Positions 11,419 to 12,055 of a DNA stretch of 64,000 nt are shown here, piece after piece; the stretch's first letter is position 1, and each line of letters begins with the position of its first letter. Position numbers and translations under genes: made by a program. The stretch is from Prochlorococcus sp. AG-363-C02 (GTDB lineage: Bacteria; Cyanobacteriota; Cyanobacteriia; PCC-6307; Cyanobiaceae). The notes under the pieces were generated by a model, which saw only the letters and a list, made by a program, of their open reading frames with translations, made no database searches and was not told the origin of the DNA. The stretch lies in NCBI GenBank assembly GCA_003278345.1, contig QCFH01000001.1, positions 1 through 64,000 on the forward strand, written 5' to 3'.

Positions 11419-12055
11419 ATGGGAGCTCAAGAATCAACTGCCGTCAAAATCTGTGGCATTAAAACAGCGGAGCAGGCACTGGGGATAGCATCCTAGATTT
11501 TTATCAAATGCAAAAAGAAGAGTAATTTTTGAAAGTCTAATTAAAAATGCTCCAACAGTCGAAAGGGTTTGGGTGGTTGCAAATATAGATTCAAATTTAA
11601 TTTTGGAGGGTTTAAAAGGAATGGGAGCTCCATCAGTCATTCAACTCCATGGGACAGAATCCAAAGAAAAATGCAAAGAGTTAAAAGAGCTTTACCCGCA
11701 CATCAAATGGTGGAAATCATTTCAAATTCGTCAAGCTAAAGATTTAAGTTTTGCTCAAACTTATCAAGACTCTGTAGACGCTTTACTTATAGATACTTGG
11801 AGTAGTAAACATCTTGGAGGAACTGGGAAAAGAATCCCTATAGAACTACTAGCCAAGATAAAATTCGATATTCCTTGGTGGTTAGCTGGCGGAGTTTCTG
11901 CTGATTGGATTAAGAAGGTGTTATTAGAAATAAAACCTTTTGGGGTAGATGCATCAAGCAAATTGGAAATAAAACCAGGAGTAAAAGATTTATTAAAAGT
12001 AAAAACCCTTATAGAGGAAGTGAAAACCTATAAGAGCCTTGATATAAAAAAATAA
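11419..12055 (+). pseudogene. trpF: Phosphoribosylanthranilate isomerase, frame broken by apparent internal deletion
   Basis: TrpF isomerises phosphoribosylanthranilate in tryptophan synthesis. From the ATG at 11419 the frame reads MGAQESTAVKICGIKTAEQA then LGIAS and hits TAG at 11494-11496. The match resumes one base out of phase (PRFLSNAKRRVIFESLIKNA) and runs to 12055 with good TrpF features (IQLHGTES, WLAGGVSADW, GVDASSKLE). About 14 residues expected between these blocks, the second beta strand GADAIGxI..S, are missing. A deletion of about 41 or 44 bases would explain both the gap and the shift. A GTG at 11573 opens the longest intact part (160 aa), which lacks the N-terminal strands and the catalytic cysteine region. 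Genuine decay and an assembly error are both possible. Confidence 0.85.

Follow-up and report, generated by a model that had tools for sequence, protein, structure and literature searches.

The closest described counterparts of the locus studied here are the members of the TrpF family (PF00697, PRAI; NCBIfam NF002298), in which the cysteine of the N-terminal KICGI block is catalytic. A known way to dispense with TrpF is provided by PriA, or bifunctional HisA. The searches detected TrpF in 52 of 60 genomes, with 35 of the 36 well-completed ones having it and the exception being a distant member of the class, and in the named-genome collection trpF formed one open frame in 79 of 80 relatives, the remaining one ending at a contig end. 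The nearest relatives by TrpF were the Prochlorococcus single-cell genomes AG-439-M18 (L089/G008) and AG-409-K04 (L090/G001), whose intact trpF genes share 66% and 62% identical residues, respectively, with the copy in the window (the whole 64,000-nucleotide stretch of DNA analyzed). The neighborhood in both is that of the window, with the same opposite-strand gene upstream and an opposite-strand short-chain dehydrogenase downstream. Unlike the window trpF, both genes retain a stretch of 44 bases and are read in one frame. The window copy matches the family well from the PR motif that follows beta2 as far as the C-terminus, with the KICGI block lying upstream, but unlike the family it consists of two blocks in different frames, with beta2 and its loop gone and no full-length frame. 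The features of the locus are as follows.

11419..11496, + strand: trpF 5' fragment, starting with ATG and running for 25 codons (MGAQESTAVKICGIKTAEQALGIAS) to a premature TAG formed at the junction (from translation and alignment to relatives)
11491..11494, + strand: deletion junction in trpF, with 44 bases fewer than in 11 genus-mates (from DNA alignment and codon listing)
11492..12055, + strand: trpF remainder, 187 codons plus stop, undecayed, in a different frame from the 5' fragment

The frame opened by the ATG at 11419 (frame 1) is closed on translation by the TAG at 11494-11496. This fragment corresponds to beta1, and the KICGI cysteine that it carries is severed from the rest of the protein. 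The remainder (frame 2) occupies 11492-12052, encodes 187 residues beginning PRFLSNAKRR, and has its stop at 12055; its earliest start codon (ATG, GTG, or TTG) is the GTG at 11573. It was matched to PF00697 over profile positions 32-192 with E=6e-22 and 78.7 bits, the curated cut-off being 22.7. When this block was shuffled by composition, none of 20,000 trials stayed open, which shows that chance does not account for the open downstream frame. In alignment with an intact relative, the 5' fragment corresponds to residues 1-25 and the second block, in the other frame, to residue 40 onward. The beta2 strand and the SPR loop are absent, with PR alone left, and the TAG, the 44-base loss, and the change of frame leave no single continuous frame from beta1 to beta8. 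The broken trpF frame was thereby confirmed as real in the assembly. The original prediction, that TrpF blocks lie here in different frames, was borne out by translation, the PF00697 match, and alignment, with its coordinates correct, and its estimate of about 14 residues missing around beta2 also held.

The size of the deletion, originally given as 41 or 44 bases, was settled at 44 by DNA alignment with the 11 genus-mates in which the trpF locus was available: the window trpF is shorter by exactly 44 bases than all 11, the spacing is identical in all 11, and none of them has the shortened frame. The gap falls between ...GATAGCAT and CCTAGATTT, the sequence across the junction is GATAGCATCCTAGATTT, and the junction string in this genome is GATAGCATCCTAGATTTTTATC. 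In the genus-mates, the missing segment encodes (S)LGxDAIGVIGVxSS, also written LGADAIG(V/I)IGVxSS, which is strand beta2 plus the following loop; its loss removes these residues and shifts the frame. The left edge in the genus-mates reads GCA TCC TTA or GCA TCC ATA and the right edge TCA CCT AGA TTT, which suggests that CC or CCT would have been common to both breakpoints if the ancestor resembled the genus-mates, this microhomology being deduced from them and not from an intact close relative within the species. A microhomology of 2-3 bases fits in-cell deletion and amplification template switching alike. No long direct repeats that might have caused the deletion were present at the junction, and the hairpin in an intact relative was unremarkable (z = -1.8, for a stretch of the L002 locus folded as the non-coding strand). 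Exact matching of a degenerate pattern for DAIG(V/I)IGV did not detect the lost segment at any other place in this assembly; as a control, the pattern was found in four of five relatives, the fifth (G004) having AAT for GAT.

Apart from the deletion, the gene appears healthy. The window TrpF keeps 61 of 62 genus-invariant residues in a leave-one-out test and 33 of 33 residues invariant across 23 related genomes, a retention no worse than that of intact copies. No additional stops were present in the remainder, and substitutions cluster at third codon positions. Relative-rate counts for the window and its nearest relative, AG-439-M18, were 16-20 and 10-13, respectively, depending on the outgroup, with no clear rate excess. 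A decayed pseudogene was rejected on the basis of the stops, the invariant residues, and the rate counts. Since the remainder is undecayed, the damage is either very young or technical; this, together with the deletion being private to this assembly, supports the earlier suggestion that the loss is recent or artificial. A second TrpF copy, for which a search had been suggested, was not found in this assembly by protein and Pfam-model searches. The phage collection yielded no DNA match, and no protein relative turned up among viral contigs.

The draft, of Prochlorococcus type judging by its nearest relatives, comprises 42 contigs totaling 1.42 Mb at 77.15% completeness; these values and the nature of those relatives suggest that it was amplified from a single cell. 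When the pipeline applied to related single-cell genomes was benchmarked, misassemblies averaged 1.5 and indels 3.0 per 100 kb (PMC6122165), and at that rate about 2 indels are expected per 64 kb. In the window, trpF was the sole gene found split between two frames. A frame-break scan of 152 kb of AG-409-K04 yielded nothing apart from one weak 11-residue match, the automatic test being insensitive to breaks without missing residues and having missed one such break in AG-439-M18. There (G008:C15, L055 7799-8507), the short-chain dehydrogenase adjoining trpF is split between two frames with no residues missing; neither the window nor other genus-mates show a break in this gene. In the species-representative genome G014, positions 1-36860 of contig C17 (L169, L170) form a perfect inverted repeat of 36,860 bases, 100% self-complementary, in which trpF therefore occurs twice; this palindrome is almost certainly an amplification or assembly artifact.

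The rest of the tryptophan pathway was examined in the same assembly. Full-length open frames were found for trpE (507 residues), trpD (341 residues), and trpA (266 residues). For trpC, only the last ~46 residues were present, at the end of contig C2, and its incompleteness is probably an assembly gap. No trpB was found by profile, and a 4.2-kb DNA query spanning trpB together with its neighbors (rhodanese-like, SUI1, and apsK) and a further open frame gave no match in this genome, the query having been run without a positive control. Three other incomplete genus-mates (AG-409-K04, G007, and AG-439-M18) also lack trpB. Because the neighbors are missing too and these three genomes share the absence, the lack of trpB is probably an assembly gap reflecting shared low coverage, and not a loss of the pathway. 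The assembly is compatible both with retention and with loss of tryptophan synthesis.

Taken together, the locus is probably a typical cyanobacterial trpF, present in single copy, that a local 44-base amplification or assembly deletion has broken in the draft. The "artificial" alternative allowed for in the original prediction is the likeliest. The deletion would have arisen either in assembly or in whole-genome amplification of a single cell, where the polymerase may have switched strands at a match of 2-3 bases. In the living cell, trpF would most likely have been intact. That the deletion is technical and not biological is suggested by the incomplete draft, the single-cell relatives, the pipeline error rates, the undecayed gene, and the standing of trpF as the only broken gene in the window, as well as by the full-length trpA, trpD, and trpE and the artifact-like damage in G014 and AG-439-M18. 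Chimeras joining direct-orientation segments less than 10 kb apart are known from multiple displacement amplification (MDA), and most show a match of 2 or more bases where the segments meet (PMC1855051). Counting against an artifact, such short-range direct joins were the rarest chimera class in that study (11 of 475; PMC1855051), and benchmarking placed P. marinus assemblies among the cleanest (PMC5519541). A clean 44-base loss with 2-3 bases of microhomology is, in addition, typical of normal in-cell deletion.

Microhomology-associated small deletions are an ordinary class of mutation, and the principal alternative is a real deletion: a recent, private trpF null in the cell itself or in its close relatives, representing a tryptophan auxotroph or a cell leaving the population. 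A clean deletion, a premature stop, and an undecayed remainder are what would be expected of a very young null. However, trpA, trpD, and trpE are intact, and trpF was broken in none of the related picocyanobacteria examined, the single incomplete locus among the 80 named ones being truncated where its contig stops. It is also improbable, compared with the error rate of amplified genomes, that the one wild cell sampled should happen to carry a young null, and this alternative was accordingly judged rather unlikely. That a Prochlorococcus population has truly lost TrpF, relying on external tryptophan or another isomerase as a phototroph in transition to tryptophan dependence, is very unlikely. 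If the deletion were both real and population-wide, it would be a rare loss of a core amino-acid step in a free-living cyanobacterium.

It was also considered whether trpF has become dispensable, with a PriA-like HisA of the lineage isomerizing phosphoribosylanthranilate as well, so that the loss is tolerated. HisA enzymes with PriA-type motifs can substitute for TrpF in E. coli (PMC4732765). In this 77%-complete assembly, however, no HisA was found, probably because of an assembly gap, the searches returning HisF and weak matches that included TrpA, and every genus-mate with the locus keeps trpF, with no sign that the lineage can spare it; the chance of this explanation is therefore very slim. 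The auxotrophy or HisA/PriA takeover raised in the original prediction accordingly gained no support, given that trpF is complete in the related picocyanobacteria examined in every case where the locus is covered and that trpA, trpD, and trpE are intact. Finally, although both fragments persist with conserved residues, a working enzyme made from the two pieces by frameshifting, re-initiation, or fragment complementation is scarcely credible, because beta2 and its loop are deleted outright and unrecoverable by any change of frame, the TAG coincides with the junction, no start precedes GTG 11573 in the downstream piece, and the arrangement is absent from all relatives examined. In single-cell or other drafts, a broken biosynthetic gene should not be equated with auxotrophy unless reads or a second genome support it.

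Two observations were made during the searches for relatives. No TrpF match was obtained with a Prochlorococcus query in G056, a 99%-complete genome from a distant member of the same class. A picocyanobacterial-type TrpF with 43% identity over 206 residues was found in L128 (contig CALPNT020000198.1), which is labeled as a Bifidobacterium breve metagenome-assembled genome, suggesting that this bin is mislabeled or contaminated.
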